Positions 5,485-31,765 of a stretch of 64,000 nt of DNA are shown piece by piece (within the stretch, counting starts at the first letter, position 1; each line of letters starts with the position of its first letter). A program made the position numbers and the translations under genes. The DNA is from Azoarcus sp. CIB (GTDB taxonomy: Bacteria > Pseudomonadota > Gammaproteobacteria > Burkholderiales > Rhodocyclaceae). The DNA is taken from positions 2,728,001 to 2,792,000 of the forward strand of contig NZ_CP011072.1 in assembly GCF_001190925.1 (NCBI RefSeq), in the 5' to 3' direction. The notes beneath the pieces are model-generated. The model searched no databases. It saw only the letters and a program-made list of their open reading frames with translations, and was not told where the DNA came from.

Positions 5485-5501
5485 TTGTCTTGCCTCCTTG
5501 C

Positions 5502-7620: not shown

Positions 7621-7653
7621 AACATAAACAGATTTTGCAAATCTGTTTATGTT
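7621..7653. promoter_or_regulatory. Site A: perfect palindrome, probable TetR operator
   Basis: Two 15-base arms (AACATAAACAGATTT and its exact reverse complement) flank a 3-base centre. The core at 7628-7646 reads ACAGAT-N7-ATCTGT. It overlaps the stop codon of the tetR gene and lies 160 bases upstream of the amidohydrolase operon. Related 19-base sites occur at 17136, 31736 and 20845, which favours an operator over a plain terminator. A T-run follows on the plus strand, so hairpin termination remains possible as an added role. Confidence 0.65.
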
Positions 7654-8348
7654 TTTTCTTTTTCGCGGCGTCGAGAGCCCGTGGAACGTGTCGGCGCAGC
7701 CACCTCGACAGCCTCATCGCCCTTGGTGGCAGGAAAACCGATCAGCGAGCGCACGAGACGCTCGATGCGCGCAGTGCCTTCGTTTACGCGCTCATTGGGG
7801 ACGAGCTGTTCGCTCAATACGTAGCGGATCAGCATTTCGCACACGAGCTCGCGATCGATGCTGATGCCGAGACGCCCATCCCACGCGTCGAACACGGCCC
7901 TGAGGACGTCCTGCAAGCGCACGCGCGCGTCGTTGAAGACGCGGCGAAAAAAGCCCATCGCATAATCGGGCGCCACCACCAGCAGACGCCGCGCCTGTCC
8001 GTGCGCCGCGTAGTGCTCCAGGTAACCGATCAGGGCACGAAATTTCTCGTCGGGGTCGTCGTAAGGGGCGGTCACTTCCTGCATCGCCCGGTGAAAACCC
8101 TCGCGTTTGTGGCGCGAAAACGCATCGAGCAGATCGTCCTGCGACGAGAAATAGCGGTAGAACGTGCCCCGCGAGACACCTGCGTCGTCGCACACGTCGA
8201 TAATGGAAATGCGCTCGGCACCTCCCTTGAGGATGATCCTTTCCGTCGATGCCAGAATTCGTGCAATGGTCGCGTCCGAGCGGCGATTGCGCCGAGCGGA
8301 CTCCATTACCGGTCCGTCTTCAGCGACTGTCTCGGCTTCGTCGTTCAT
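7647..8348 (-). CDS. TetR/AcrR family transcriptional regulator
   Basis: The 233-residue protein has a TetR-type N-terminal helix-turn-helix (IIDVCDDAGVSRGTFYRYFSSQ, about residues 48-69; the family hallmark is GTFYRYF) and a less conserved ligand-binding domain. A basic tail ends the protein. It lies 61 bases downstream of the SDR gene and is probably cotranscribed with it. The neighbouring perfect palindrome and related sites before four operons make it the best candidate for the local repressor. The inducer is unknown; a CoA thioester or aromatic acid would fit the context. Confidence 0.9.
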   Translation of the reverse strand: MNDEAETVAEDGPVMESARRNRRSDATIARILASTERIILKGGAERISIIDVCDDAGVSRGTFYRYFSSQDDLLDAFSRHKREGFHRAMQEVTAPYDDPDEKFRALIGYLEHYAAHGQARRLLVVAPDYAMGFFRRVFNDARVRLQDVLRAVFDAWDGRLGISIDRELVCEMLIRYVLSEQLVPNERVNEGTARIERLVRSLIGFPATKGDEAVEVAAPTRSTGSRRREKEKT

Positions 8349-8409
8349 GCGTGTGCCTTGGGAATGGACGGACCGCGGGGCGAACCGCAGGGCCCGTCAG
8401 AAATTCGAT

Positions 8410-9210
8410 TCAGTATTCGCGCACCGGCACATCCGCCGGACGCGAGTTGTAGCCGGGCAAGTGCAGCCCGCCATCGACATGCAGCATTTCGCCGGTGACA
8501 TAGCGGGACATGTCCGATGCAAGAAAGACCACTACGGGGCCGATGTCGAGTTCCGGATCGCCACACCGGCCGAGGGGGCGCATCGCGGCAGAGCGTTCGG
8601 CGAAACCGGGGTTCTCCGCGGCCAGCTTGTGGAAGGTCGCGCCCATCGCGGTCGGGGCGACGGCATTCACTGTGATGTTGAAGCGCCCCCATTCCGCCGC
8701 AGCACTGCGCGTGAGGCCGACGATGCCGCCCTTCGCCGTGTTGTAGTCGGCATGCAGCCACGCGCCGATCTCGACGTCGATCGAGTAGAAATTGACGATC
8801 TTCCCGCCCCCGCGCGCCCGCATGTGCGGCAGCGATGCCTGCATCGCCCACCACGACGCCTTGATCGTCGAGGTCAGCGTCTGCTCGAGCATTTCGTCCG
8901 TCTTGTCTTCGAGGCGCACGTTCGGCGTCGGCACGAAGGCGTTGTTCACGAGGATGTCCAGCCCGCCGAAATGGGCCACTGCCGCCTCGATCGCGCCCGT
9001 CACGGACGCCTTCTGCATCACGTCGGTACGCACGAACAGCGCCCGCCCGCCCAGCTCCTCGATCTCGCGCGCCACCAGGGCTCCAGTCTCTTCGTTGATC
9101 TCCGCGATCACCACGGCAGCCCCCTCGCGCGCGAAGCTGTGTGCCACGCCGCGGCCGATGCCGCCGCCGGCCCCGGTAATCAACGCAACCTTGTCCTTCA
9201 GCAAGCCCAT
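8410..9210 (-). CDS. SDR-family dehydrogenase
   Basis: The 266-residue protein has the glycine motif TGAGGGIG near the N-terminus, NNAF in the central strand, the serine of NFYSID and the catalytic YNTAK. The full classical triad is therefore present. AGGAGACGAAA precedes the ATG at 9210. It should be an NAD(P)-dependent alcohol dehydrogenase or ketoreductase; the context suggests a role in side-chain or dihydrodiol oxidation. It heads a short unit with the TetR gene and is divergent from the DUF2889 gene. Confidence 0.9.
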   Translation of the reverse strand: MGLLKDKVALITGAGGGIGRGVAHSFAREGAAVVIAEINEETGALVAREIEELGGRALFVRTDVMQKASVTGAIEAAVAHFGGLDILVNNAFVPTPNVRLEDKTDEMLEQTLTSTIKASWWAMQASLPHMRARGGGKIVNFYSIDVEIGAWLHADYNTAKGGIVGLTRSAAAEWGRFNITVNAVAPTAMGATFHKLAAENPGFAERSAAMRPLGRCGDPELDIGPVVVFLASDMSRYVTGEMLHVDGGLHLPGYNSRPADVPVREY

Positions 9211-9225
9211 TTTCGTCTCCTGTCG

Positions 9226-9260
9226 TTATTGCACACTATTTTTGTTATTGTACACTTTAA
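9226..9260. promoter_or_regulatory. Site E: direct-repeat operator/promoter candidate between divergent genes
   Basis: The short gap between the SDR gene (minus) and the DUF2889 gene (plus) carries two copies of TTATTG(C/T)ACACT, 19 bases apart. Read as a spaced site it is ACACTA-N7-TATTGT at 9233-9251, with the same 19-base span as sites A-D but weaker identity. A very similar TTGCACACTAT word lies before the small exported protein gene at about 26147. Assignment to a regulator is uncertain. Confidence 0.35.
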
Positions 9261-9295
9261 GAAGAAAGAAACACTCCCCAACGGAAGCCATTGCA

Positions 9296-10115: not shown

Positions 10116-11351
10116 TCAGGGCCGGTTGGCCGCTTCCCAGGCTTTCAGATCGAAATCGGGGGCAGCGGCGGTAGCGGGCGTCAACGCCGGGGGGCGTGCG
10201 AGGATCTTGCGTGCGAACACGTGGTCGCCGGGGCGGTTGCAGGACTCGACCGCGATCAGCTCCTCCCCGCGGAAGCACAGCACCGAGAGCTGTTGCGCGG
10301 CGGCATCGCCCAGCGTCACGTAGTTGTCAGCCCCGATCGACAGACCGGCGATCTGCAGCTTGAGATTGCCCTGGTCGGTCCAGAACCAGGGCAGCGCTGT
10401 GTAGGGTGCGGGTTTGCCCACGAGGCGGGCCGCGATGAGCTTGCCTTGGTCGACGGCGTTCTGCACGGACTCCAGGCGCGTGAGATTTTCGCCGTTTTGC
10501 ACGCACGGGAAGGCGGCGACGTCACCCAGCGCGGAGATGTGGGGGTCCGAAGTGAGGAGACTGGAGTTGACGCGAATCCCGTTATCGATGTCGAGTCCGG
10601 CCTCGAGCGCGAGCTGCACGTTGGGAATCACGCCGATGCCGAAGACGACCAACTCGGCAGGCAGACGTCGTCCATCCGATGTCGTCACGGCACTCACCTT
10701 GCCGTCCTCGCCTTCCAGCTCCGCCAGACCGGTACGGAAGTTGAACTTCACGCCCCAGCCTTCGTGTGCGGCACGGAAGAGCTCCGACATCTGCGGGGAC
10801 ACTGCCCGTGCCATCGGGCGGTCGCCGAGTTCAAGCACTTCGACCGCAGCTCCTTCGGCCGCCGCCACCGCAGCGAACTCCAGACCGATGAAGCCGGCAC
10901 CGATCACGACGACGTTCCTGGCCTGCTTCACCAGCGGCGACAGGAAATCGGCATCCGCCTTGGTCTTGATGCCGAAGATACCGCCCAGCGTCGAACCCGG
11001 CACGTTGAGCGGCCGATTGTGGGCGCCGGTCGCGAGCACCAGATGGCCGAAGTCGAGCGCACTCCCCGAGTCGAGCATGACACGACGGTTCTGCCGATCG
11101 ATCGCCGCTACCCGATCATGGACGAGCTCGATGCGCTGATCCGCGTAAAAGGTCTCCGGCCGGAAGAGCATCGCAGTGGCGTTGATCTTGCCGAGAAGGT
11201 AGGCCTTCGACAGGGGCGGTCGCTGGTAAGGCAGACCGGGCTCGTCGTTCACGAGCACGATGCGGCCCCCGAACCCTTCCTGGCGCAGCGAAATCGCCAC
11301 TTGCACGCCCCCGTGCCCCGCCCCCACGATCACCACTGAATCGAGCGACAT
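10116..11351 (-). CDS. Ferredoxin--NAD(P)+ reductase (FAD-dependent)
   Basis: The 411-residue protein has an FAD-binding GAGHGG motif at the N-terminus, the LPYQRPPLSK segment typical of dioxygenase reductases, and a second dinucleotide motif GAGFIGLEFA for NAD(P)H. It has no redox disulfide. It should pass electrons from NAD(P)H to the [2Fe-2S] ferredoxin encoded immediately upstream (36-base gap) and on to the Rieske oxygenase of the same operon. It is the last gene of the operon starting at 17064. Confidence 0.92.
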   Translation of the reverse strand: MSLDSVVIVGAGHGGVQVAISLRQEGFGGRIVLVNDEPGLPYQRPPLSKAYLLGKINATAMLFRPETFYADQRIELVHDRVAAIDRQNRRVMLDSGSALDFGHLVLATGAHNRPLNVPGSTLGGIFGIKTKADADFLSPLVKQARNVVVIGAGFIGLEFAAVAAAEGAAVEVLELGDRPMARAVSPQMSELFRAAHEGWGVKFNFRTGLAELEGEDGKVSAVTTSDGRRLPAELVVFGIGVIPNVQLALEAGLDIDNGIRVNSSLLTSDPHISALGDVAAFPCVQNGENLTRLESVQNAVDQGKLIAARLVGKPAPYTALPWFWTDQGNLKLQIAGLSIGADNYVTLGDAAAQQLSVLCFRGEELIAVESCNRPGDHVFARKILARPPALTPATAAAPDFDLKAWEAANRP

Positions 11352-11387
11352 CTTCCCGTCTCCTTATCGTTTTTCAGATCGCCGTCT

Positions 11388-11708
11388 TCAGAACTGCGCA
11401 GCCGGCAGCCGCAGCGTGAGGCCGTCCATGTCCGCTCCGACGACCAGCTGGCACGTAAGCCGACTGGTAGGCTGGCGCTCGACGACGTTCTCCAGCATGT
11501 CGTATTCGGTACCTTCGGCGGGCGCAAAACGCCCCGCCCAGGCGTCGTCGACGTAGGCATGGCAGCTGGCGCAGGCGCAGGCGCCGCCACAGTCACCGGG
11601 AATGCCGGGAACGCCGGCAAAGGTCGCGGCCTGCATGGCCGACTGGCCGACGTCGGCGTGCACTTCGTGCCGGGTGCCGTTGTGTTCGATGAAAGTGATC
11701 GTGGGCAT
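11388..11708 (-). CDS. [2Fe-2S] ferredoxin, adrenodoxin/putidaredoxin type
   Basis: The 106-residue protein has the vertebrate-type CX5CX2C...C pattern, Cys40-Cys46-Cys49 plus Cys86, within GDCGGACACASCHAYV. This differs from the Rieske-type ferredoxins used by many three-component dioxygenases. Placed between the oxygenase and reductase genes, it is the probable electron carrier to the Rieske oxygenase. The ATG at 11708 lies 27 bases after the MFS stop codon. Confidence 0.93.
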   Translation of the reverse strand: MPTITFIEHNGTRHEVHADVGQSAMQAATFAGVPGIPGDCGGACACASCHAYVDDAWAGRFAPAEGTEYDMLENVVERQPTSRLTCQLVVGADMDGLTLRLPAAQF

Positions 11709-11735
11709 TTGTTGGCTCCGATGAGAGGGATGAAA

Positions 11736-13007
11736 TCAGGCCCGCTGCACTTCGGCGTGCAGGGCAAACTGGGGACTGCGCCCGAGCGTCAGCAGCAATG
11801 ACGCGCCGAGCAGGGTGGCCACGGTGCAATAGACGAGCATGGCAAAGTAGGTACCGGTGACACTCAGCATCGCAGCAAACATCAGCGGCGCGGCTGCCGA
11901 CGCGACCGTGATGAGCCCCTGATGCACGCCGAACAACCGGCCGTAGTCCTTGAGGCCGAAGTAGCGTGCGATGAGGAAGGCCGCGATGTCGAATTCGGCG
12001 CCCGCGCCAAGTCCGACCAGCGCCGCTGCAAGACTCATGACGGCCGGATCGGTGGTTCCCGACAGGAAGATCAGACAACCCACCCCGGGCAGGGAAAGGC
12101 TCAAGGCTGCCACGCCGGGCGGCCACAGCCGGTCGAGCAGGTAGCCGACCACCAGGCGACCGCAAATCAGCGCAATGCCGAAGTAACCGAAGACAAGGGT
12201 CGCATCCGCCGCCGACAGCCCTTTGTCTCGCAACATCGGCACGGTACTGGTGACGAGGCCCACCACCGCCGACACGACCAGCGACAACGCCACGTTACAG
12301 ATCCAGAATCGCGGCAGGAGCATTCCTTCCTGGAAGCTGACGCCGCTCCGCACCAGCGGCGGACCGTCGTCTGCCTTCGTGCCGCTTACCGGACGTTCGC
12401 CAGGCAGGCGGAACCACCATAGGGTCAGCGGCAGTCCCACCAGCACATTGAGCAGCGCCAGGATTACGAAGGCGGCCCGCCAGTCCCAGTTCTCGACCCC
12501 CCAGTCCAGTAGCCTCGGTACCAGCGCGGCGGTGATACCGGTGCCCGAAAGCCCGATCGCGAGCGCCAGTCCGCGGTTGCGGTGGAACCAGAGATTGAGG
12601 AGTTGCGTCCAGGTGACCGCCAGCGCACCCATGCCGATGATCGGGAGCAGGAAAAATGCTGCGTAGAGCGACCAGATCGAGCCGCCAATCTGCGTCGTCG
12701 CCAGATAGCCGAGCGCCATCAGCAGCAGCGAAATCACTGTCACGCGCTTCATGCCGAAACGCAGGTTGAGCCAGCCGACGAGTTGCAGGCCGAGCACGGC
12801 GCCGCCGAACAGAAAGGTGATTGCTGCTTGCAGCGAACCACGGTCCCAACCGAAAGCCTGCTCGAGGGGGATCACCAGGACGCCGAAGCCATACAGCAAT
12901 GCGGCGTTGATGCTGATCGCCACCCCGATCACCGACAGAACAACGACCTGCCAGCCCTGCCTGAACTCGGTCAGATCGATCGCCGCGTGATTTCCGTTTG
13001 ATGCCAT
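11736..13007 (-). CDS. MFS transporter (oxalate/formate-antiporter-like monocarboxylate type)
   Basis: The 423-residue protein is strongly hydrophobic, with about twelve membrane segments. The SGTGITAALVP segment and the central soluble loop resemble the OFA/monocarboxylate branch of MFS_1. It is an inner-membrane carrier, probably for uptake of the aromatic or aliphatic acid handled by the surrounding enzymes. The start at 13007 follows GGAGTAGAAAA. It sits inside the dioxygenase operon, between the beta subunit and ferredoxin genes. Confidence 0.88.
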   Translation of the reverse strand: MASNGNHAAIDLTEFRQGWQVVVLSVIGVAISINAALLYGFGVLVIPLEQAFGWDRGSLQAAITFLFGGAVLGLQLVGWLNLRFGMKRVTVISLLLMALGYLATTQIGGSIWSLYAAFFLLPIIGMGALAVTWTQLLNLWFHRNRGLALAIGLSGTGITAALVPRLLDWGVENWDWRAAFVILALLNVLVGLPLTLWWFRLPGERPVSGTKADDGPPLVRSGVSFQEGMLLPRFWICNVALSLVVSAVVGLVTSTVPMLRDKGLSAADATLVFGYFGIALICGRLVVGYLLDRLWPPGVAALSLSLPGVGCLIFLSGTTDPAVMSLAAALVGLGAGAEFDIAAFLIARYFGLKDYGRLFGVHQGLITVASAAAPLMFAAMLSVTGTYFAMLVYCTVATLLGASLLLTLGRSPQFALHAEVQRA

Positions 13008-13109
13008 TTTTCTACTCCGCTCCCCGTCCTGGCTCTCGTACCAGCCTCGTGCCGAAGGACAGAACGGGCACCGTCCGATCCGTAACCGGACCGGCGGCGC
13101 CCGGGTTGC

Positions 13110-13673
13110 CTAGAGGAAGATCGCAAGGTTCGGCGTGCCCAGCACCGCCTGGTCGAGAATGACTTCGCGACGCACGAGCTTGAATCCCTCGCCATCGACG
13201 CGCAGCAGATCGTTGCGCTCGCCGCTGATGACATCCATATCGGGAAAGTCGAATCGGCTGCGTGTCAGCAGCAGATAGCTCACGACCGCGAATTCGTCGG
13301 GCCTGTCGGTAGCGAATACCTGCACGTTGCTCACCATGCGGCGGGTGCGTGACGGGGGATCCTCGGCCCACGCGCTACGTGTCTCGGTGAGCCGCATGAT
13401 GCGCCCCATGATCGAGCGGTAGTTGTCGTGGTAGTGCTGCACCGTGCGGATAACCGACTGGGCCTGCTGGGACATCGGGCGGGTCTGTCGCAGAGGCACG
13501 GTGTAGACCAGGTCGGGCGCAAGCGTCGCGCCCCACTCCTTGAGACGGATCGTGTCGAGCAGGGTCGCTTCCTGGTAGAGGAAGCCGACGATGCGGTTAT
13601 AGATTTCGGCCCCGACCGGGATCGGGTTTCCGATGACGGGGGCGTTCTCGGCAACTTGTTGTGCGGCGCTCAT
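13110..13673 (-). CDS. Aromatic-ring-hydroxylating dioxygenase, beta subunit
   Basis: The 187-residue length and layout fit the small subunit of Rieske non-haem iron oxygenases, an NTF2-like fold, with the early YNRIVGFLYQEATLLD region and a LTETRSAWAEDPPSRTRR segment corresponding to the RxxSN block. It has a structural role in an alpha3beta3 oxygenase. The gene is 39 bases downstream of the alpha-subunit gene. The sequence alone does not assign a substrate class. Confidence 0.9.
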   Translation of the reverse strand: MSAAQQVAENAPVIGNPIPVGAEIYNRIVGFLYQEATLLDTIRLKEWGATLAPDLVYTVPLRQTRPMSQQAQSVIRTVQHYHDNYRSIMGRIMRLTETRSAWAEDPPSRTRRMVSNVQVFATDRPDEFAVVSYLLLTRSRFDFPDMDVISGERNDLLRVDGEGFKLVRREVILDQAVLGTPNLAIFL

Positions 13674-13712
13674 GTGTCGCTCCTTCGAAGGTGTTGGGTC
13701 GGACCGGACGGC

Positions 13713-15107
13713 TCAGGCCTTGGCGTTCATCAGTTCGTTCCAGTACAGCCACCAGTGCCACTGGGTGTCGTCCTTGGTGAACCCTTCGTTGACGATGCCC
13801 GGCCCGGGCCAGCCGGCGGGGGCGCCGGTCTCGTACACCGCCTGGTACTTGAGGGTCGAGCGACGCCCGCGCGCGCCCTTGGCGGCGAGGGTCATGTGGG
13901 GCCAGGTATCGGAATCGTCCTGCTCGACCATGCCCGAGGTGCCGAACAACTGGATGCTCTGCATCAGCATCCTGTCCTTGAGCTCCTGCGGGGCATCCTT
14001 CTCAGCGAGCACCCAGTTCACGAACTCGAGTTGATCCGGCCCCTTCGGCACGTAGGCGTGCAGCAGCGTGAGGCCGAGCACGGAGCCGTCGGCCTGCGGG
14101 ATGTACACGAACGCGAACAGCACGTTGGGGAAAATCCCGCCCACCTGCGGCGGCATCGACACCATCACTTCGAGCTGCTCTTCGCTCAGGTGCTTCCTGA
14201 GCTGAGGCAACATTTCACGCGTCATCCCCGGCGGCGGCAGTGCTTCGAGTTTCTGCTCCACCGTCAGCTCCGCCGGATCGAGGCCGGAGAGCTTCTTGAT
14301 CTTGCGTCCGAGGTCGATGCAGCGCAGCGCATGGCCATGCGGCGAGCTCACCTCCACGCCGTACATCTCGGGCGACAGGTCCGCGCTGCCGCCGTCGCCA
14401 CTCTTGGAGTAGTTGCCGACCTCACCGAGCCAGCGGTGCAGGGTCAGCGTGTGGTAGCCGTCGGCGGCCGACTGTTCGCCCGCGGCTTTCCAGTTCGCGC
14501 GCACGATGAAACGCTGCGGCGGGCCGAGCACTTCGAGCCCCTTGTCGCTGCGCTCGAACAGGGTGTCGAAGTACCATTTCGCATCACCAAGGAATTCTTC
14601 GAACGACGGTCCCTCCAGGTCCCAGGTCGCGAAAATGATGCCGCCGTAGAGCGTCACCCGTGCCTGCGGCAGGCCCAGGTCCTCCTTCGGCATCATTTTG
14701 CCGTGCATGCACTCCTTCTCGACAGGCGCTCCGATGAACTCGCCGCTCGGCTTGAACGCCCACCCGTGGTAGATGCACTTGTGAATCTGGGTATTGCCCG
14801 CGTCGACCGTCGAGATGCGCATGCCGCGGTGGGGACACACGTTGAGCGAGACGTGTATGTTCCCGTCCTTCGCTCGGGCGACGATGACCGAGTCCGACCC
14901 CATGTCGCGCACGACGAAGTCGCCGGAGTTGGGCACTTCGGATTCGTGCCCGAGCAGCAGCCAGGTCTTGCCGAAGACGCGATCCATCTCCAACTGATAG
15001 ATCTCCGGATCCGACAGGGCCCGCATCTGGACTTCCCGCGTCGGGACGCGAACCAGATCGGACAGCGGCGTGCCGTCCGCCAACGTGTAGCTTGCCTTGG
15101 TCAACAT
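13713..15107 (-). CDS. Rieske aromatic-ring-hydroxylating dioxygenase, alpha subunit
   Basis: The 464-residue protein has the Rieske cluster motifs CPHRG and CIYHGW, spaced as C-x-H ... C-x-x-H. It also has the mononuclear iron site in ADGYHTLTLH, with two histidines; the third acidic ligand lies in the C-terminal domain. It should dihydroxylate an aromatic ring or aryl-CoA using electrons from the operon's ferredoxin and reductase. The start at 15107 is preferred because AGGAG lies six bases before it; an ATG two codons upstream would abut the ribosome site. The N-terminal variant beginning at 15215 is unlikely. Confidence 0.93.
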   Translation of the reverse strand: MLTKASYTLADGTPLSDLVRVPTREVQMRALSDPEIYQLEMDRVFGKTWLLLGHESEVPNSGDFVVRDMGSDSVIVARAKDGNIHVSLNVCPHRGMRISTVDAGNTQIHKCIYHGWAFKPSGEFIGAPVEKECMHGKMMPKEDLGLPQARVTLYGGIIFATWDLEGPSFEEFLGDAKWYFDTLFERSDKGLEVLGPPQRFIVRANWKAAGEQSAADGYHTLTLHRWLGEVGNYSKSGDGGSADLSPEMYGVEVSSPHGHALRCIDLGRKIKKLSGLDPAELTVEQKLEALPPPGMTREMLPQLRKHLSEEQLEVMVSMPPQVGGIFPNVLFAFVYIPQADGSVLGLTLLHAYVPKGPDQLEFVNWVLAEKDAPQELKDRMLMQSIQLFGTSGMVEQDDSDTWPHMTLAAKGARGRRSTLKYQAVYETGAPAGWPGPGIVNEGFTKDDTQWHWWLYWNELMNAKA

Positions 15108-15279
15108 TGTCATCTCCTGTGGAGTGAAGCCGTCCGTAAGGACGACCCTCGTTCGATGGGCCTGACGGCCACTTCTTGTGGGTTGTTCAATTGCTCGGGC
15201 ACCGGTGTTCGGCACCCTGTACGTCGGCAGCCGTTGCCCACCGGCTGACGTCCTTATTGCGAAGGCCTGCGTCTTCCCG

Positions 15280-16266
15280 TCACGGCTTCGTCACGCGCGT
15301 GCGCAACGTGCCGATCGCCTCGATCTCGAGTTCGACCACGTCACCCGGTTTGAGATAGCGCAGCTGCTCGAGTCCGCAGCCGTTGCCGACCGTGCCCGAG
15401 CCCAGCACTTCGCCCGGATAGAGCGTTTCCGAGCGGGAGATGTGCGCGATCACGTCCGCGAAGGTCCAGCGCATGTCTCGGGTAGTGCCACGCCCCCATT
15501 CCTCACCATTCACGCGCGCGATCATCTGCAGGTCGTAAGGATCGGGCACCTCGTCCGCAGTGACGAGGCAAGGCCCCATCACGTTACCGGTATCGAAGTC
15601 CTTGCTCTTCGCCGGGCCGAGCATGCCGGGCATCTCGAGGGCCTGCGCATCGCGGGCGCTCATGTCGTTGAAGATCGTGTAGCCAACGATGTAATCGCGC
15701 GCCTTGTCGCGCGGCACGTCCTTCCCCTTGCGGCCGATGTAGCACGCCAGCTCGAGTTCGAAGTCCATCGCCTTGCTGTACGCCGGCCACACGACGTCGT
15801 CGTCGGGACCGATCACCGCGAAGCGATTGCACTTGTAATAGATCGGCTGGCGATTGAAGGTCTCGATGACGCGTTCGTCGGCGCGCGTGTTCATCTGCCG
15901 CAGCGCCTCCTCGGGGTCGGGCAAGTGCGCCACGCGGGCGCGCCGCGCTGCGGCGAAGCTCTGTCGCAGGTGTAGCTCGAAACAGGAGCAGTCGCGCATC
16001 TGCGGCGGCGGCTGGATGGGGGCGCACAGTTTCACGCCCTCACGCGCGATGACCGCCGCCGACGGAGCTTTCCGCACCAGGACGCGCGCCGCTGCAAGTG
16101 CCTCCTCACCGGCCTCGACCAAACCGAGCACGCTCGCGAAGATGGGGGACCCATGGCCGTTTACGACTTCGCAAGCCGTGGCGAGGTCGACGATCGCCGA
16201 ATCCGATTCGATCAGCGCGCCGGCACGCTGAAAGCCGTGAGAGTCACGATATGTGACGAGTCGCAT
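15280..16266 (-). CDS. Fumarylacetoacetate hydrolase (FAH) family protein
   Basis: The 328-residue protein has an N-terminal FAH domain and a catalytic domain with FELELACYIGRKGKD, carrying acidic metal ligands, FNDMSARD, and a VLGSGTVGNGCGLE ending. It is closer to the fumarylacetoacetase-like group than the 290-residue paralogue at 5502. Hydrolysis of a C-C bond in a dioxo-acid formed after ring cleavage is plausible. CAGGAGACAAT precedes the ATG at 16266. It lies between the SDR and oxygenase genes of the same operon. Confidence 0.88.
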   Translation of the reverse strand: MRLVTYRDSHGFQRAGALIESDSAIVDLATACEVVNGHGSPIFASVLGLVEAGEEALAAARVLVRKAPSAAVIAREGVKLCAPIQPPPQMRDCSCFELHLRQSFAAARRARVAHLPDPEEALRQMNTRADERVIETFNRQPIYYKCNRFAVIGPDDDVVWPAYSKAMDFELELACYIGRKGKDVPRDKARDYIVGYTIFNDMSARDAQALEMPGMLGPAKSKDFDTGNVMGPCLVTADEVPDPYDLQMIARVNGEEWGRGTTRDMRWTFADVIAHISRSETLYPGEVLGSGTVGNGCGLEQLRYLKPGDVVELEIEAIGTLRTRVTKP

Positions 16267-16362
16267 CTATTGTCTCCTGTCGGGGACTCGTCCCGCTCGA
16301 TGCGGGCGAATCCTCTTTTCTTCGAGTTCTGCCCCTCCCCACGGGAGAGGCGCTGGCGGTTG

Positions 16363-17130: not shown

Positions 17131-17165
17131 TTTAGACAGATTTTGCACTTCTGTCTATATGTGCA
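17131..17165. promoter_or_regulatory. Site B: operator-like palindrome in divergent promoter
   Basis: The core at 17136-17154 reads ACAGAT-N7-TTCTGT. It shares an uninterrupted ACAGATTTTGCA with site A at 7628 and the same TCTGT(C/T)TAT right arm. It lies midway between the divergent starts of the SDR/dioxygenase operon (17064) and the DUF35-thiolase pair (17215), where one repressor could control both. Confidence 0.65.
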
Positions 17166-21140: not shown

Positions 21141-21200
21141 GCTCTTCGCCGGACTGGTAGCGCGAAAAGCGCTGGAACCGCCCACTTCGCGGAGATCCGA

Positions 21201-21959: not shown

Positions 21960-22089
21960 GCACGAGCCCGAAAGTTCGTAACCCAACAGTGAGCGAACGG
22001 ACGTCGTGCCCCTGCGGCACAGTCCGAAGTCTGCGCAAAGCGCGGTGCAAATCGCGGGCGCAGGTCGCTCAAAACAGGAGGAAGACAGC

Positions 22090-23031: not shown

Positions 23032-23145
23032 GTGACCGCTAGCGCACCAGCCGAACCGGGTTCCGCACTGCGCGCGCCGGTTGCGGCGCCGGCCGCTACC
23101 GCGCACCCTATCGACATCATCTGAATGCAGCCACCGGAGCACGCG

Positions 23146-24198
23146 ATGTACAGCCATATCCTCGTTCCGACCGACGGTACCCATCTCGCCAGCCAGACGA
23201 TCTCTCAGGCCGTCCAGTTCGCCCGCAGCGTGGGGGCGCGCATCACGTTCTTCTATGCCGATCCGGATGCCGGCGCCTCTCTGACCGACGACGGTGCGCT
23301 GATCCACCTTCTCGACCCCGGCCTGTATCAGGACGACTTCGGCGGGCGCGCCCGCGAGATCCTCGCCAAGGCCGAGGTGTCGGCGCGCGCGGGCGACATC
23401 GACTGCGAGTGCGTGACCCGGCGGAGCAACCGGCCGCACGAGGCCATTCTCGCCGCCGCGAAGGAACTGGGCTGCGACCTGATCTTCATGGCATCGCACG
23501 GGCCGCGCAGCATTGGCGGCGTCATGCTCGCCTCGGAAACGCTCAAGGTGCTAGCTGGTAGCCGCATCCCGGTACTCGTGTCGTCGGTCGAAAAGAATGA
23601 CCCGAACCCGGCGATGACGAAGGTCTGCGCGATCATCAAGGACGAGCACCGCTCGATCGCGGTAGTGTCCTACGGCATGCGGATGCTCGCTGGCGGACTG
23701 CGCGACGGCAAACCTGCGGATATCGGCCTGCTCGACGGCATGCTCACCTACCTCGACGAGTTCCCGGCCAAACTGCACCATCCAAAGGAAGATGCCTACC
23801 TCTTCGCGGCACTCAGGAGGCGCACGACGTCGCTCGACCAGGTCATCGACGATCTGCAACAGGAGCATCTGGATGGCGACCGACAACTTGCTGCCCTGCG
23901 CGCGGCCGTCGCCCACTATCAGGCGTCCCCCGACCCCGACGCAGAAACGCTCGCAAGCGCCATCGACGCCTTCGCCCTCGGGCAGCTCAGGCATATCGCA
24001 CTCGAGGAGCGGGCGATCATCCCGGGCGCCTGCGACCACCTCGCGGAACAGGACTGGAAGGAGATCGTGGCGGCCTTCGGACCGAACGGCGACGCGCGCT
24101 TCAACCATCGCGAACGCGAGACCTACCGACGCCTGTATTCGCGAATTGCCAACCTGCACCAGACGCTGCCCCGCATGAGCACGCCCGGCCAGTCATGA
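23146..24198 (+). CDS. Universal stress protein - hemerythrin (HHE) fusion
   Basis: The 350-residue protein has an N-terminal universal stress (UspA) domain, beginning ILVPTDGT and running to about residue 145. A C-terminal hemerythrin-like bundle follows, with candidate iron ligands in LHHPKEDAYLF and RHIALEERAIIP. HHE proteins bind a di-iron centre and sense or handle oxygen or NO. The fusion suggests a stress protein that responds to oxygen or oxidative chemistry, fitting a gene downstream of an oxygen-dependent dioxygenase. GGAG precedes the ATG at 23146. Confidence 0.88.
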   Translation: MYSHILVPTDGTHLASQTISQAVQFARSVGARITFFYADPDAGASLTDDGALIHLLDPGLYQDDFGGRAREILAKAEVSARAGDIDCECVTRRSNRPHEAILAAAKELGCDLIFMASHGPRSIGGVMLASETLKVLAGSRIPVLVSSVEKNDPNPAMTKVCAIIKDEHRSIAVVSYGMRMLAGGLRDGKPADIGLLDGMLTYLDEFPAKLHHPKEDAYLFAALRRRTTSLDQVIDDLQQEHLDGDRQLAALRAAVAHYQASPDPDAETLASAIDAFALGQLRHIALEERAIIPGACDHLAEQDWKEIVAAFGPNGDARFNHRERETYRRLYSRIANLHQTLPRMSTPGQS

Positions 24199-24217
24199 CG
24201 CCGCCGGTGCCCCGCCC

Positions 24218-25804
24218 GTGAGTGTCGAGCGCAATGCCACGGGTGCGTGGGCACCTCTCCTCCATCGGCCGTTTCGCGCGCTGTGGATCGCGGCGATCGC
24301 GGTCAACCTGTCGATGTGGATGCAGAACATCGGCGCCGCCTGGATGATGACCGAACTGCGGCCCGATTCGCCGCTCATGGTGTCCTTGGTCCAGACGGCG
24401 ATGGCGCTGCCGGCCTTTCTGCTCGGGCTCCCGAGCGGCGTGATCGCCGATCTGGTCAACCGCAGGCGCCTCCTTCTGATCACCCAGACCTGTTCCCTCG
24501 CATGCGCCTGCCTGCTCGCAGCCACGGCCCTGGCTGGCGGCATCGGCGCCTGGCTGCTCCTCGGCCTCACCTTCGCGCTCGGGTGCAGCAACGCGTTCGG
24601 CATGGCGGCGTGGATTGCCGCCAACATCGACAGCGCGCCGAAGGGGCAGATACCGGCAGCGATCGCCCTGTCCACGGTCACGCCCAACATCGCGCGCGTC
24701 GTGGGACCGGCCGCCGCGGGGGCACTGATCGCATTCGCGGGCGTCCCGACGCTGTTCGTCGTGGTCGCGGTCGGTTTCTTGATCTCACTGGGGCTGCTGC
24801 GCGCCCTGCCCGACACGGATCTGCGGCCCGGCCTGCCGCCCGAGCGGCTGTGGAGCGGCATCCGCAGCGGCGTACGTTACATGCAGCATTCCGCGCAGCT
24901 GCGGCTCGCGCTGCGACTGGTCTTCGCTTTCGTGACCGCAGGCAGCGCGATCTGGGCATTGCTGCCACTCGTCGCCCGTGACCAGCTCGGGCTCGCTGCA
25001 GGCGGGTTCAGCCTGCTCCTCGGCAGTCTCGGCGCGGGCGCAGTTATCGCGGCATTACAGGTCACCCGACTGTATCGTCGTTTCTCCGTGCGCCGCATCG
25101 TGACCGGCGGCGGCCTGTTGTTCATGGCCGTCACGGCGCTGATTCCGGTGGTACACAATCTCTTTGTCATGAGTGCACTGCTCTTCGTCGGAGGAATGGC
25201 GTGGATGGCTGTCAATACCACCACCGGGACCGTGATCCAGACCTCCGCCGCAGCCTGGGTACGTGCTCGCGTTGCGTCGGTATACCTGCTCGTCATCATG
25301 GGGGCGATGGCAGCGGGCGGCGTATTGTGGGGCGCGATCGCCGAACGCATGGGCGTCGGGGCAAGCCTGTGGATTGCTGCCGGATCGATTGCGGCCGGGC
25401 TGATGCTGACCGGACGAGCTCGCATGCAAATGGGATCGGAGTCCGATTTCAGCGTCGCCGACACGCAGGAAACGGGGCCCGCTGCCAGCCCGGCCGACCA
25501 TGAGCAGGGACCGGTTGCGGTCGAAATCACTTACCACGTGCCGGCCGAGCGGCATGAGGAGTTCGTGCGCGCGGCCCACGAACTCGGCATCTCACGCCGA
25601 CGAAACGGGGCGATCGCCTGGCGCCTCTATAGGGATCTCGAACACACGGATTGTCTTGCCGAACGCTTCCTGGTGGACTCGTGGCTCGACTACCTGCGCC
25701 AGCGCGACCGTGTCACTCGGCAGGACCGCGACATCGAGCGCCGCCTGGAGGCCCTCACCACGGACGGGAACTCGCGCACACGCCGCTTCATTGCGGAAGC
25801 GTGA
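24218..25804 (+). CDS. MFS transporter fused to a C-terminal ABM-like domain
   Basis: The 528-residue protein begins with a GTG codon; an ATG at 24195 leads to a stop after eight codons. Residues 1-400 form an MFS transporter of the enterobactin-exporter-like (MFS_3) type. After a linker, residues about 430-520 (AVEITYHVPAERHEEFVRAA) look like an antibiotic-biosynthesis-monooxygenase-type ferredoxin fold. MFS_3-ABM fusions are known in bacterial genomes but their function is unclear. An efflux role for a toxic intermediate is plausible. The gene starts 19 bases after the USP-HHE gene. Confidence 0.85.
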   Translation: MSVERNATGAWAPLLHRPFRALWIAAIAVNLSMWMQNIGAAWMMTELRPDSPLMVSLVQTAMALPAFLLGLPSGVIADLVNRRRLLLITQTCSLACACLLAATALAGGIGAWLLLGLTFALGCSNAFGMAAWIAANIDSAPKGQIPAAIALSTVTPNIARVVGPAAAGALIAFAGVPTLFVVVAVGFLISLGLLRALPDTDLRPGLPPERLWSGIRSGVRYMQHSAQLRLALRLVFAFVTAGSAIWALLPLVARDQLGLAAGGFSLLLGSLGAGAVIAALQVTRLYRRFSVRRIVTGGGLLFMAVTALIPVVHNLFVMSALLFVGGMAWMAVNTTTGTVIQTSAAAWVRARVASVYLLVIMGAMAAGGVLWGAIAERMGVGASLWIAAGSIAAGLMLTGRARMQMGSESDFSVADTQETGPAASPADHEQGPVAVEITYHVPAERHEEFVRAAHELGISRRRNGAIAWRLYRDLEHTDCLAERFLVDSWLDYLRQRDRVTRQDRDIERRLEALTTDGNSRTRRFIAEA

Positions 25805-25878: not shown

Positions 25879-26097
25879 TTAGCGGTGCATCAACAACATG
25901 CCGACGAACTCGTTCATCGGCATGTGCGCATAGAGATGTGACACCGCATACGCGTGACTCTCCATCGTCCCATCGCACGATGGAGCTGAAGCACACGCCT
26001 GGGTGACACCTGGGGGGTGCAGCGAAACGAAGGAACCGTCGGTAGCGGTCAGCAACGCCGCCGCGACGGCGCTGATGCCGAGTGTTCTGAGAGCCAT
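25879..26097 (-). CDS. Small exported hypothetical protein
   Basis: This 72-residue ORF begins with a hydrophobic segment (LGISAVAAALLTA) that looks like a signal peptide. A strong AGGAGGAGACATC ribosome site precedes its ATG at 26097. The mature part would be about 45-50 residues with two cysteines and several His/Met residues (ESHAYAVSHLYAHMPMN). A 9-base-pair hairpin (25960-25968 with 25977-25985) lies inside the gene. It faces the ETF terminator region and has its own upstream site F. I do not recognise the family. Confidence 0.5.
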   Translation of the reverse strand: MALRTLGISAVAAALLTATDGSFVSLHPPGVTQACASAPSCDGTMESHAYAVSHLYAHMPMNEFVGMLLMHR

Positions 26098-26146
26098 GAT
26101 GTCTCCTCCTGTCGAAGGTGCGCCTCTATCGGGCGATTTTTGTATT

Positions 26147-26170
26147 TGCACACTATATGTGCTTGTGTTC
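26147..26170. promoter_or_regulatory. Site F: operator/promoter candidate before small exported protein gene
   Basis: The segment ACACTA-N7-TTGTGT (26150-26168) is preceded by TTTGC, as at site E (9233-9251), and matches that site at 14 of 19 positions. On the minus strand TATAGT could serve as a -10 element. It lies about 50 bases before the small gene at 26097. Identity with sites A-D is low. Confidence 0.3.
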
Positions 26171-26233
26171 AAGATTAGACAATACCCTGAACGAGCGCAA
26201 GGATTTTTTGCCGTATCCCTGGCGTGGTTGAAT

Positions 26234-26371: not shown

Positions 26372-27301
26372 TCAAAGGCTCGCTGTCAGTTCGGGAACCG
26401 CGGCGAACAGATCCGCTACAAGGCCGTAGTCCGCAACCTGAAAGATCGGCGCCTCGGGGTCCTTGTTGATCGCGACGATCAGCCTGGAATCCTTCATGCC
26501 CGCCAGATGCTGGATGGCGCCGGAGATGCCGATCGCGATGTAGACCTGGGGCGCGACGATCTTGCCGGTCTGGCCGACCTGGAAGTCGTTGGGGACGAAG
26601 CCCGCGTCGACCGCGGCGCGGCTCGCTCCGAGCGCGGCGCCTAGCTTGTCCGCGAGCGGCTCGAGCAGGGTGCGGTAGTTCTCGCCGTTACCCAGCCCCC
26701 GGCCACCGGAGACGATGATCTTGGCGGCACCGAGTTCGGGGCGCTCACTCTTCGTGAGTTCGCGGCCGACGACACGGGTCAGGCCCAGGTCCTTCGCGGC
26801 GGGCACGACCTCGATCGGCGCGGAGCCGCCGAGCGGCGCGGCGTCGAACGCCGCGGTGCGCACGGTCACGACCTTCACGCGGTCGGTGCTCTTGACGGTC
26901 GCTAGCGCATTGCCGGCGTAGATCGGTCGCACGAAGGTGTCGGCCGATTCGACCGCGACAATGTCGGAGATCTGCGCGACGTCGAGCAGTGCGGCGACGC
27001 GCGGCAGCATGTTCTTCCCGGCGCTGGTTGCCGCGGCGAAGACGTGACTGTAGTCGGCGGCGAGCGCACGCACGAGCTCGGCAACGTTCTCGGCGGTCTG
27101 TGCTTCGTACTGGGCCGCGTCGCATACCAACACCTTCGCGACGGCGCTGATGGCGGCGGCGGCTTGGGCGGCGGTGGAGCAGCCGCTGCCCGCGACCAGG
27201 ACGTGGATGTCCGCTCCGACCGCCTGCGCGGCGGTCACGGCGTTGAGAGTCGCGGTCTTGATCGACTGGTTGTCGTGTTCCGCAATGACGAGGACGGCCA
27301 T
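26372..27301 (-). CDS. etfA: Electron transfer flavoprotein, alpha subunit
   Basis: The 309-residue protein has the N-terminal ETF domain and the C-terminal FAD domain with the SGGRGLG and [19 protein letters not shown] regions that define the alpha subunit. It carries electrons from acyl-CoA or similar dehydrogenases to the respiratory chain. Its ATG shares a base with the stop codon of the beta-subunit gene (TGATG), so the two are coupled. Confidence 0.95.
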
Positions 27302-28062
27302 CAGATCACCTTTGCTTCGTTCTTCAGTTTATCGACCAGCGTCGCGACATCCGGAACCAGCACGCCGGCACTGCGCCTGGACGGCTCGGCCACTTTCAGG
27401 ATCGCCAGACGCGGAGCCACATCGACTCGCAGATCCGTGGGCTTCACGGTCTCGAGCGGCTTCTTTTTCGCCTTCATGATGTTGGGCAGCGTCGCGTAGC
27501 GCGGCTCGTTGAGGCGCAAATCCGTGGTGACGACCGCGGGCAGCGTCATCTCGAGGGTTTCGAGGCCGCCGTCGATCTCGCGCGTGACCGTGGCAAGGTT
27601 CCCGTCCACTGACAGCTTCGATGCAAAGGTGGCCTGCGGCCAGCCCATCAGGGCTGCGAGCATCTGGCCGGTCTGGTTCGCGTCGTCGTCGATCGCCTGC
27701 TTGCCGCAGATCACCAGCTGCGGGGCTTCCGTGTCGCACAGGGCCTTCAGGAGTTTGGCGACGGCGAGCGGCTGCAGCTCGGCGTCGTTCAGTTCACCAC
27801 AATCGACGAGGATGCCGCGGTCGGCCCCGATTGCCATCGCCGCACGCAGGGTTTCGGAGCACACCGCCGCGCCGCAGCTCACCGCCACCACTTCGGTCGC
27901 GATGCCGGCTTCCTTCAGCCGCACAGCCTCTTCCACCGCGATCTCGTCGAAGGGGTTCATGGCCATCTTCACGTTGGCGAGGTCCATGCCCGAACCGTCC
28001 GCTTTCACGCGGGCCTTCACGTTGTAGTCAAGCACGCGCTTGACGGGTACCAGGATCTTCAT
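27301..28062 (-). CDS. etfB: Electron transfer flavoprotein, beta subunit
   Basis: The 253-residue protein starts with [16 protein letters not shown] and has the beta-subunit signature around [23 protein letters not shown]. The start at 28062 has AAGGAGACTC upstream; more distal in-frame codons overlap the oxidoreductase gene. It forms the heterodimer with the alpha subunit encoded next. The unit follows the fused oxidoreductase gene by 86 bases, so the three genes are probably one operon. Confidence 0.95.
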
Positions 28063-28148
28063 GAGTCTCCTTGTTGTCGATTGCTGGTTGATTCGCGCCG
28101 TACGACCATCAAGGGCGCGAGCGCCTCGATGTTGTTGTCCGGCGCACT

Positions 28149-31100
28149 TCAGGCTGCCCGTTCCGACCGGCCAGCCTCGAACCGGGCCTGCAGCTCTTCG
28201 CGACGCTTGGTCGCGCCGGCCATGCTGCGTTCCTTGACGTGGCCATAGCCACGAATCTGTTCCGGGACGCGCGCAAGCTCGATCGCGACATCCAGCCGGT
28301 CTCGCGACAGGCCGTCGCAGATGCGGTCGATGAAGACGAAATAGTCCTTCACCAGTTCGCGCTCCTGGCGCCGCTCCGCGCTCCTGCCAAAGGGGTCCAG
28401 GGCGGTGCCACGCAGGCCCTTGAAGCGGGAGAGCAGGCGGAAGGTACGCATCATCCACGGACCGTAGGCGCGCTTCTGGGGCAGGCCGTCAACGCCACGC
28501 TTCGCGAACAGGGGTGGCGCGAGGTGGAAGTTGAGCCGGTAATCCCGGCCGAGCTCGCCCTCGAACTGTTCGCGCAACTGGGCGAGGAATTCGGGCGCGC
28601 TGTGCAACCGCGCCACCTCGTACTCGTCCTTGTACGCCATGAGCTTCGCGAGGTTGCGCGCGACAGCCTCGGTCAGGGCGAGTCGGCCTTGTCCGACCAC
28701 CGCTCGCTCGGCCTCTCGCACCCGCGCCACGGCCTTTCGGTATCGCTCGCCATAGGCGGCATTCTGATAATCGGTGAGCAGCCTGACGCGGCGTTCGATC
28801 AGCCGGTCCAGCGACTCCGGCATAGCCAGCACCACCGCCTCACCCCGCCCCGAAGCGTCGGCCACCGGCAGTTTTCCCGCGTCGTGTGCCGCAAGCCGTC
28901 CCCACTCGAACGCCTGCCGGTTCTTTTCGACCGAGACGCCATTCAGCTCGATCGCGCGCAGCAGTGCCGCCTTGCCGACCGGAATCCAGCCTTTCTGCCA
29001 CGCGAACCCCAGCACGAGCGGATTGGCGTAGATCGTGTCGCCGAGCAGCCGCAGTGCAAGCGCGTTCGCGTCGATGAATTCACAGGCATCGCCCACACTG
29101 GCGCGGATGTCGCCCTCGGCCGCCGCCCCCGGAAACTTCCAGTCGGGATTCGACAGGAACTCCGCCGCCGGGGTCTGCGCGCTATTGACCACCGCTCGCG
29201 TGCGTCCCTGACGAACCTTGGAGAGCGCTTCGGCCGAAGCCGAGACGATCTCGTCGCAGCCGATCAGCACGTCGGCCTCGCCGGTAGCGATCCGGGTGGC
29301 GTGAATGGCCGCCGGGGTCGCCGCGATCTGCACGTGGCTCAACACCGCCCCGCCCTTCTGCGCGAGCCCGGTCATGTCGAGCACGGTGACGCCCTTTTGT
29401 TCCAGATGAGCCGCCATGCCCAACAGCGCACCGATCGTGACCACCCCGGTTCCGCCGACCCCCGTCACGACGATACCGCAGGGTTTGTCCAGCCCGGGCA
29501 GTGCGGGTTCAGGCAGCGCCTCCGCGGCAGTCACCGGCGCCGACTCGCGCGCTGCGGGCTTGCGCAATTGCGCGCCCTCGGCGGTCACGAAGCTCGGGCA
29601 AAAACCCTTCAGGCAGGAGAAATCCTTGTTGCAGCCGCTCTGATTGATCTTGCGCTTGGTGCCTAGCGGCGTTTCCAGTGGCTCCACCGACAGGCAGTTG
29701 GAGACCACGGAGCAGTCGCCACAACCCTCGCAGACTGCCGGGTTGATGAATGCGCGGCGGGCCGGATCAGGGTAATCGCCGCGCTTGCGGCGGCGGCGCT
29801 TCTCGGTGGCGCAGGTCTGATCGTAGATCAGGACCGACACCCCCGAACTCTCGCGCAGCTCGAGCTGCAACGCGTCAAGCTCATCCCGATGGTGCACCGT
29901 CACCGCATCCGGCAGACCGGCGCGCATCGCGTACTTCTCCGGCTCGTCGCTCACGATCAGGACCCGGCTAGCACCTTCGGCGCTCACCTGCTGCGCGATC
30001 TGCGGCACCGTCAGCACCCCGTCGACCGGCTGCCCCCCCGTCATCGCGACCGCGTCGTTGTAGAGGATCTTGTAAGTGAGGGTCGCCTTGGCGGCGATCG
30101 CCGCGCGGATGGCGAGCAGGCCCGAATGGAAATAGGTGCCGTCACCGAGGTTCACGAAGACGTGCTTGTCGCCCGAGAAGTGCATCTGGCCGAGCCAGCT
30201 CACGCCCTCCCCGCCCATCTGCGTGAAAGTCTCGGTGCGCCGGTCCATCCACATCGCCATGTAGTGACAACCGATGCCGGCGAGCGCGCGCGAGCCTTCC
30301 GGCACGCGGGTGGACGTGTTGTGCGGACAGCCCGAACAGAACCAGGGCTTGCGCTCGACGGTCACGCGAGGCCGCGCCGCTTCGCGCTCCTTCCCCTCGA
30401 TGACATCGATACGCGCGAACACGCGGGCGCGAAGGTCCTCGGGCAGCCCCACCCGCTCCAGTCGCGCCGCGATGGCCTTGGCGATGATCGCCGGCGACAG
30501 CTCGTAGCGCGCCGGAAGCAGCCATTGCCCACGCGGCACCGACCACTCGCCCCCCGAGTTGTCGCGCTCGTCGAACTTGCCGTAGACGCGCGGGCGGACG
30601 TCGTCGCGCCAGTTGTACAGTTCTTCCTTGAGGGCGTACTCGAGAATCTGGCGCTTCTCCTCGACCACCAGGATTTCTTCCAGTCCGGTCGCAAACGCGC
30701 GCGCATCGTGGGCGTCGAGCGGCCACACGCAGCCCACCTTGAACAGGCGGATACCGATGCGTCGGCAGGCGTCGTCGTCCAGACCCAGGTCCGCCAGCGC
30801 CTGACGCACGTCGAGATAGGCTTTGCCTGCCGCCATGATCCCGAAGCGCGCGTCGGGCGAATCGATCACGATACGGTTGAGCTTGTTCGCGCGGACGTAT
30901 TCGAGCGCCGCATACCACTTGTAATCGAGCATGCGCGCTTCCTGCGCGAGCGGCGTATCCGGCCAGCGGATATTGAGCCCGCCGTCAGGCATTGCGAAGC
31001 CATCCGGAATGACGATCTGCAGGCGGTCCGGGTCGATCTCGACCGATGCGGTCGACTCGACGACATCGGTGACGCACTTCATCGACACCCACAATCCCGA

Positions 31101-31706
31101 GTAGCGGCTCATCGCCCAGCCATGCAGGCCGAAGTCGAGATATTCCTGCACGTTCGCCGGGTACAGCACCGGAATGCCACAGGCGATCAACAGGTGCTCC
31201 GATTGATGCGCGACCGACGACGACTTCGCCGCATGGTCATCGCCGGCGAGCATCAGCACGCCGCCATGGGGCGAGGTCCCTGCGGCGTTCGCGTGCTTCA
31301 GCACGTCGGCCGAGCGGTCCACGCCCGGCCCCTTGCCGTACCACATCCCGAATACCCCGTCGCGTTGGGCGTTGGGGTAGAGATTCACCTGCTGCGTGCC
31401 CCAGACGGCGGTCGCGGCGAGGTCTTCGTTGAGGCCGGGCTGAAAGACTACGTCATGGGAGGCAAGATGCTTTTTCGCCTTCCACAGCGCCATGTCCAGC
31501 CCACCCAGCGGCGAGCCGCGATAGCCCGAAATGTAGCCGCCGGTGTTCAGCCCGGCGCGCCGGTCGCGCTCCTTCTGCAGCATGGGCAGGCGCGCCAAGG
31601 CCTGCGTACCGCTCAGGTAGATGCGTCCGGACTCCTGGGTGTACTTGTCCTCCAGCGTGACCGAAAGCAGTGCATCTCTCGCCTCGGCAGACAACGGTGA
31701 GTTCAT
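28149..31706 (-). CDS. Fused indolepyruvate-type 2-oxoacid ferredoxin oxidoreductase
   Basis: The 1185-residue protein combines all parts of a 2-oxoacid:acceptor oxidoreductase in one chain. A thiamine-diphosphate fold comes first ([14 protein letters not shown]). A second TPP region with GDGTYFHSG and [10 protein letters not shown] lies near residues 500-560. Next is a cysteine cluster (CEGCGDC and later cysteines) for iron-sulfur centres, then a gamma domain ([15 protein letters not shown]). It oxidatively decarboxylates an aryl- or alkyl-pyruvate-like acid to an acyl-CoA. The second of two adjacent ATGs (31706) is better spaced from GGAGGGG. Its operon includes the ETF genes and lies behind site C. 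Confidence 0.92.
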
Positions 31707-31729
31707 CATCCCCTCCAGACCCTCTATTT

Positions 31730-31765
31730 ATATCGACACATAGTACGAATCTGTCTATGTATCGT
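31730..31765. promoter_or_regulatory. Site C: operator-like site between divergent IOR and lysR genes
   Basis: The 19-base segment 31736-31754 reads ACACAT-N7-ATCTGT and continues CTATG, matching the core of site A at 14 of 19 positions and its right arm AATCTGT(C/T)TATGT almost fully. An overlapping outer pair ACATAG/CTATGT (31738-31760) adds symmetry. It sits in the 97-base gap between divergent genes. Confidence 0.55.

Follow-up and report, generated by a model that had tools for sequence, protein, structure and literature searches.

A conserved palindromic site before dit-type resin-acid degradation operons of Azoarcus sp. CIB, a predicted operator of a TetR-family repressor

Predicted operators and the operons behind them

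The DNA considered here, referred to as the window, is a 64-kb stretch of Azoarcus sp. CIB (contig NZ_CP011072.1, positions 2,728,001 to 2,792,000 of the forward strand), in which several catabolic operons surround a TetR-family gene (tetR, 7647 to 8348, minus strand). Our subject is a palindromic sequence that recurs before these operons as six predicted operator sites, A to F, given below in 27-bp form and with no strand assigned, and the TetR protein as their candidate reader, recognized by its Pfam TetR_N domain, its orthologues and an AlphaFold model with a TetR fold. Operon limits are drawn from strand and spacing. The original prediction had placed four of the sites, A to D, at 7628-7646, 17136-17154, 31736-31754 and 20845-20863, and all four are present in the sequence with ACA...TGT ends at the same 19-base span. 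It had also assigned each site to a different operon; those four assignments stand, and the count grows, with E and F, to six promoter regions in the window and five more sites in a second cluster.

Operator A (7624 to 7650) lies between the 3′ end of tetR and the amidohydrolase operon, upstream of the latter, is the best site in every matrix, and scores 18.3 bits with the model R1 described below. Read from the sequence, it sits in a perfect palindrome of 33 bp (7621 to 7653; 15-bp arms around a 3-bp centre) and overlaps the tetR stop codon, which places it at the 3′ end of tetR and outside tetR's own promoter. A had been described as a perfect palindrome touching the only TetR gene in the window. 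The palindrome is real, and a Pfam TetR_N search of the genome gave 15 matches with one inside the window; what needs amendment is that A touches the 3′ end of the gene and that a close paralogue lies outside the window. The first gene after A encodes an amidohydrolase (6371 to 7462, minus strand; the start is read from the sequence as ATG at 7462, the list of open reading frames (ORFs) giving TTG at 7600), followed by an FAH-type hydrolase (FAH1), a 3-hydroxyacyl-CoA dehydrogenase, a thiolase and SDR1 (2521 to 6374, minus strand). Operator E (9229 to 9255), which is new, stands about 20 bp before SDR2 (8410 to 9210, minus strand), its first gene, which in turn lies 61 bp ahead of tetR. Because E precedes SDR2 and then tetR on the same strand, it is probably the autoregulatory site of tetR, acting via the SDR2-tetR pair.

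Operator B (17132 to 17158) occupies a divergent region between a leftward operon for SDR3, FAH2, the Rieske alpha and beta subunits, an MFS transporter and a ferredoxin reductase (10116 to 17064, minus strand) and a rightward operon for a DUF35 (ChsH2-like) protein and an LTP/SCPx-type thiolase (17215 to 18803, plus strand). Operator D (20841 to 20867) overlaps the promoter-like sequence GTGACA-17-CATAAT upstream of a ferredoxin gene (20916 to 21140), the first of an operon that continues with SDR4, an extradiol dioxygenase, a USP/hemerythrin protein and an MFS transporter (20916 to 25804, plus strand). Operator F (26146 to 26172), also new, lies upstream of a 72-aa, secreted-looking ORF (25879 to 26097, minus strand) with a signal-peptide-like N-terminus and no Pfam match. 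Operator C (31732 to 31758) again occupies a divergent region, between an operon for a fused IOR-type oxidoreductase and ETF subunits (26372 to 31709, minus strand) and a gene for a LysR-family regulator (31804 to 32715, plus strand).

Over the 19-base span, B shares 17 bases with A, including ACAGATTTTGCA, as had been noted, C shares 14 as also noted, and D shares 12. Within three mismatches of A, the whole genome of 5,257,030 bases holds only A and B, and 100 shuffles of the window gave no match at that stringency. D is self-palindromic at only 6 of 19 positions and would not convince from its own sequence alone; its position is kept in other genera, and this speaks for it. The predicted operator spans about 27 bp and is palindromic; its core is ACA-N13-TGT, and its flanks follow the pattern TTRAACA...TGTTYAA.

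Three position matrices agree on the sites. The first, built from A and three sites beside related tetR genes of other genomes, returned A, B, C and D, in that order, as its best four matches in the window. The second, started from the first, had as its training set 152 non-redundant sites from genera other than the window's and gave as its six top matches A (30.2 bits), E (22.9), B (22.2), F (20.2), C (16.8) and D (14.9). The third was trained on 77 sites from 29 gammaproteobacterial loci and is free of window sequence, its four Pseudomonas seed sites having been picked with matrix 1, which included A; here A to F hold window ranks 1 to 6 (29.8 to 14.0 bits), and the seventh match, overlapping E, scores 11.1 bits. 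E and F thus came out of matrices built from the sites of other genera. At 14 bits or more, the score of D with matrix 3, first-order Markov sequence yields 0.03 matches per 64 kb, and among the 778 AT-rich 27-mers of the window only A to F reach 12 bits. Weaker extra matches in the window (9248, overlapping E; 18828; 38722-38823; 2411), at 11.2 bits or less, were not accepted as sites.

Conservation, position and co-occurrence with the TetR

The sites recur beside related TetR genes far more often than composition predicts. Across 80 named loci around such genes, the best 80 of 189 confirmed matches, 213 positions reach at least 15 bits where Markov sequence has 3, and 128 reach at least 20 bits where it has none. 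The 15-bit set reduces to 208 non-overlapping places and 152 distinct sequences, 143 of them distinct when the window's genus is left aside. The spacing is also fixed: with a half-site gap of 9, at which the matrix was trained, the same 80 loci hold 213 positions at 18 bits or more, whereas other gaps from 3 to 16 give 0 to 19. Palindromic operators near tetR (A at its 3′ end, E ahead of SDR2-tetR) are conserved beside orthologous tetR genes, and the position of A was found in G067, G190, Massilia, Acidovorax, Pseudomonas and Paraburkholderia. Orthologues of D are near-identical in G190, G232 and G287, with related ones in G067 and L070. The arrangement at F, a site followed by a short ORF of 69-72 aa, recurs in seven other genomes, of which three belong to the genus of the window; Pfam matches were absent from the two such ORFs that were searched.

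Position relative to genes was examined in 96 loci minus 11 of the window's genus, by asking whether the 300 bp ahead of the protein-match start hold a site of at least 16 bits, with identical regions counted once; the matrix had been trained on many of the same loci regardless of position, and control genes were handled equally. A site precedes the amidohydrolase in 48 of 48 distinct regions, SDR2 (the position of E) in 50 of 52, SDR3 (the position of B) in 40 of 42 and the IOR gene (the position of C) in 5 of 5. It also precedes the LTP-thiolase in 31 of 38 regions, Rieske alpha in 35 of 46, P450a in 35 of 45 and P450b in 32 of 45. Before internal genes no site was found: FAH1 (0/45), FAH2 (0/42), thiolase1 (0/45), Rieske beta (0/44), 3-hydroxyacyl-CoA dehydrogenase (0/18), ferredoxin reductase (0/14) and extradiol dioxygenase (0/8). 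The counts were likewise zero for the IclR gene (0/11 regions), ETFa (0/4), ACADa (0/23), DUF35 (0/1) and CaiB3 (0/3), and a single region each had a site before ACADb (1/28), SDR1 (1/10), MFS1 (1/14) and SDR4 (1/11). The low count for SDR4 arises because the ferredoxin gene intervenes and puts D outside the 300 bp searched.

For searches of whole genomes we used a sequence model, R1, whose 60 rows are 30 distinct sites in both orientations; these were chosen by hand among the 60 best of 152, and none comes from the genus of the window. The original prediction had proposed a matrix scan to see whether many unrelated genes would be hit. At E<=10, R1 finds four places in the Azoarcus sp. CIB genome, namely A, 2840461, 2850072 and 2856502, all within a 121-kb stretch and all in the window cluster or the second cluster, A being the only window site among them. 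At this threshold, genome-wide specificity holds, with four of four places in the two clusters.

The sites also follow the TetR gene across genomes. Run at E<=5 on 25 other genomes of the family, R1 matched in all eight that carry the TetR and in none of the 17 that lack it. The nine genomes behind named loci, some of which supplied training sites, hold at least 55 distinct places, 54 of them on the TetR-bearing contig and no more than 87 kb from the TetR. In six of these nine, and in G190, G212 and G008, 150 of the first-look candidates were scored, and site counts there are minimum values. Three R1 matches lie on contigs without the TetR (G190:C271, G232:C50 and G287:C31); each precedes a second Rieske-amidohydrolase gene group, and these genes consequently also look like pathway genes.

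Pathway identity and the TetR proteins

A tblastn comparison with the locus of Pseudomonas abietaniphila ATCC 700689 (L099), which we take to be strain BKME-9, showed that the two agree in their genes and in local order; identity is 77% both for Rieske alpha and for the amidohydrolase. The syntenic set comprises the IclR regulator, LTP-thiolase, DUF35, SDR3, FAH2, Rieske alpha and beta, SDR2, TetR, amidohydrolase, FAH1, 3-hydroxyacyl-CoA dehydrogenase and thiolase. The dit orthologues ditA1/A2/A3, ditC, ditF, ditG, ditH and ditR stand in conserved order, the ferredoxin ditA3 being read in the window only. According to excerpts of PMC10710418 and PMC13063091, P. abietaniphila carries the published dit cluster for resin-acid degradation, and the excerpted text of PMC12628601 gives the roles of dit genes, among them those for an IclR-type regulator (DitR), a ferredoxin (DitA3) and a sterol-carrier-like protein (DitF). 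By this synteny, the window operons can be named as putative abietane diterpenoid (dit, resin-acid) degradation genes. The two genomes are alike in gene content and local order, and they differ in layout: homologues of the genes of both Aromatoleum-type clusters lie within one stretch of about 50 kb in the ATCC 700689 genome, whereas the window genome divides the pathway between two clusters, which are separated by about 100 kb and have a TetR each, and has the IOR-ETF-lysR genes in its operator set. The Rieske genes of the window appear to share one operon from B, while the Pseudomonas Rieske alpha gene has its own site.

The window TetR scores 40.0 bits against Pfam TetR_N (cut-off 24) and is 95-99% identical to the TetR of named Aromatoleum and Thauera records; it is presumably the protein called DitK. 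Its AlphaFold model is all-helical, and the 50 structural matches listed are TetR-type by title or known kinship. The model resembles FadR-type acyl-CoA-binding TetRs no better than many other TetRs and points to no ligand. A second TetR, TetR2 (genome positions 2855739-2856335), lies about 120 kb away, is 57% identical and has the same SRGTFYRYF stretch and recognition helix. It belongs to a second dit-like cluster with P450s, a CoA transferase, an amidohydrolase and acyl-CoA dehydrogenases. From 2840461 to 2856527, at 105-121 kb rightward of A, this cluster holds five sites, three strong (30.6, 26.5 and 24.1 bits) and two weak (14.5 and 13.7 bits). The site upstream of TetR2 overlaps TTGACA-17-TATGTT and stands in front of a CoA ligase gene. 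In the 48 kb between the window end and the second cluster no score exceeds 5.2 bits.

The original prediction would tie the operons into one pathway under one repressor. The shared operator and the dit synteny support its first half; the second is not established in this genome, since two paralogous TetRs have the same recognition helix. In seven of the nine named genomes examined, Pseudomonas among them, only one TetR is of the window type at E<=1e-20, and each of these seven carries at least 5-10 model sites; one protein can therefore serve the whole site set there.

Several known systems offer comparison. CymR of Pseudomonas putida F1, which acts at CuO in the p-cumate pathway, is likewise a catabolic-pathway repressor and is of the TetR type. 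At the operator level, the CuO half-site AAACAGA...TCTGTTT (letters from the excerpted text of PMC12868391) occurs as such in A; the ACA...TGT span is 18 bases in that text against 19 in the window sites, and a gap of 8, the CuO-like spacing, gives 0 positions at 18 bits or more in the 80 loci. FadR/KstR-type TetR repressors, in contrast, act on acyl-CoA and steroid catabolism, a different pathway. The window set would add to a known kind, the TetR catabolic regulon. To our knowledge, DitR, of the IclR type, is the only regulator described for the breakdown of resin acids (diterpenoids), and among the matches listed in literature searches no title or abstract gave an operator for a dit-cluster TetR.

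Weighing the explanations and the likely mechanism

Very probably, in our view, a TetR-family repressor uses these sites as operators to control genes for the degradation of abietane diterpenoids (resin acids, dit type). Strong support for a predicted regulon with one operator and a linked TetR comes from conservation between genera, the presence and absence of the TetR, the place of the sites before operon-leading genes and their spacing. A number of observations weigh on the other side. A alone of the six window sites passes the genome-wide threshold of R1; applied to the window alone, R1 gives B 9.9, E 8.9, D 7.9, C 7.3 and F 6.6 bits, with E-values of 0.14 to 1.7, so that each of these five rests on conservation and place. 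The TetR-less genomes scanned are 17 of the 288 sampled, and of 20 listed, G002, G004 and G012 were left out. Among the places in the nine named genomes, one exception (G303:C2:1329768) is far from any dit gene recognized. The matrix and the model were trained partly on the same loci in which positions were counted, control genes being treated alike; two leading genes have a site only in part of their regions (ligase 24/50, amidohydrolase2 28/40), and FADox, a control gene, has one in 5 of 14. Another TetR, TetR3 (genome positions 2853192-2853908), different from the two already described, co-occurs in 16 of 18 genomes examined. The fit of the -10 hexamer is poor at E and F, and TetR proteins can also activate.

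The most probable of the alternatives is a division of labour, in which TetR2 or TetR3 would read some or all of the window sites and the window TetR only A and E. TetR2 has its own operator copy upstream besides its shared recognition helix, and because of its frequency TetR3 may bind some sites. The single-TetR genomes, which still carry their sites, speak against a need for TetR2, and G302 and G212 have sites without a TetR3 match. We regard this alternative as possible and rather doubtful.

Binding of the sites, or at least of D, by the IclR regulator (DitR-like; 19980 to 20768, plus strand) in place of the TetR is improbable. The iclR gene adjoins D, ditR is given as the IclR-type regulator of dit clusters in the excerpted text of PMC12628601, and the near-identity of D between genera extends to its full length, beyond the need of a loose palindrome. 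Four genomes (G306, G307, G308 and G212), however, have the TetR and operators yet no IclR match at E<=1e-20, and the IclR gene itself lacks an upstream site, as counted above. On these genomes we rejected the IclR protein as general binder and kept it as a possible co-regulator at D, which may carry both an IclR box and the operator.

It is very improbable that A serves tetR as an intrinsic terminator or bidirectional hairpin and resembles B, C and D only incidentally. A can fold into a 15-bp hairpin (-14.7 kcal/mol on either strand) that overlaps the stop codon of tetR; a T-rich run follows it on the plus strand, and the G190 orthologue folds as well (-10.4 and -9.4). Folding is weaker, by contrast, in the G067 orthologue (-6.0 and -6.5) and, for the shorter stretches that were folded, in the orthologues of Massilia, Acidovorax, Pseudomonas and Paraburkholderia (0 to -6.8); no T run follows A on the minus strand, where tetR is read, and the core of A recurs before other operons. 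Termination as the main function of A was rejected on the weak folding of most orthologous sites, G190 excepted. Least probable of all is that the pattern is mere AT-rich sigma-70 promoter sequence (-35/-10) recurring before operons: several sites overlap such hexamers and the conserved positions are AT-rich, but we rejected pure promoter composition on the 17 related genomes that lack both the TetR and an R1 match, the palindromic motif with its single half-site spacing, and the other 772 AT-rich 27-mers of the window, all below 12 bits.

For TetR-operator control, a mechanism suggests itself from the promoter-like hexamers under the sites, which besides the sequence at D include TAGACA-17-TATATG at B and, weaker, TAAACA-17-TATGTT at A. 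The left half-site would coincide with the -35 hexamer and the right half-site would end at the -10; the clearest cases, at TetR2 and at D, have a spacer of 17 bp. Since the operator covers these hexamers, the likely mechanism is repression by promoter occlusion, in which a TetR dimer on the operator would block RNA polymerase; E before SDR2-tetR would make the repressor autoregulated. The inducer may be a pathway intermediate, most likely a diterpenoid CoA thioester or a ring-cleavage product, and release of the TetR would switch on the six window promoter regions together with the second cluster.

A wider reading, to which we give even weight for and against, is that a single operator code, conserved in Beta- and Gammaproteobacteria alike, acts as master switch for the bacterial breakdown of resin acids. 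Genomes of the Aromatoleum type, with their pathway in two distant clusters, would use two repressor paralogues, alike in recognition helix, to read the same operators; the clusters would be cross-regulated, perhaps by two different intermediates of the pathway, and the regulon would include an unrecognized small exported peptide at F. The conserved operator offers a ready test of the whole regulon in the model organism P. abietaniphila. It also marks probable pathway genes, namely IOR-ETF, the 72-aa exported-looking ORF and, in genomes of the Zoogloea group, the second Rieske copies. For biosensors it moreover offers a promoter/repressor pair that may respond to resin acids, with a build similar to the widely used cumate switch.

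Some further features of these loci can be recorded. The 72-aa ORF after F carries cysteines and histidines besides its signal-peptide-like start. The gene for a protein with Cache sensor domains (18878-19747) separates the DUF35-thiolase operon from iclR, a place that it also has in the G067 and g37 (Zoogloea-group) loci. At the right end of the window, an IS66 transposase and a DUF3363 protein (57052-62180) suggest mobile-element sequence beside the cluster. The Zoogloea-group genomes G190, G232 and G287 (L124, L125 and L126) have a further Rieske alpha/beta pair (68% and 53-54%) and an amidohydrolase, led by a strong operator copy. The outlying G303 place, in Burkholderia sp. OK233 (L127:3769-3795), is a strong operator-like palindrome near a LysR-like gene. 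In three Burkholderiales loci (L075:9920-11944, L062 and L080, from Pseudoduganella rivuli and metagenome-assembled genomes of Burkholderiaceae and Oxalobacteraceae), a single reading frame of about 675 aa encodes the dit-cluster TetR; the protein of L075, the one locus translated, contains three complete TetR modules in tandem, and each of them has a GTFYRYF helix.

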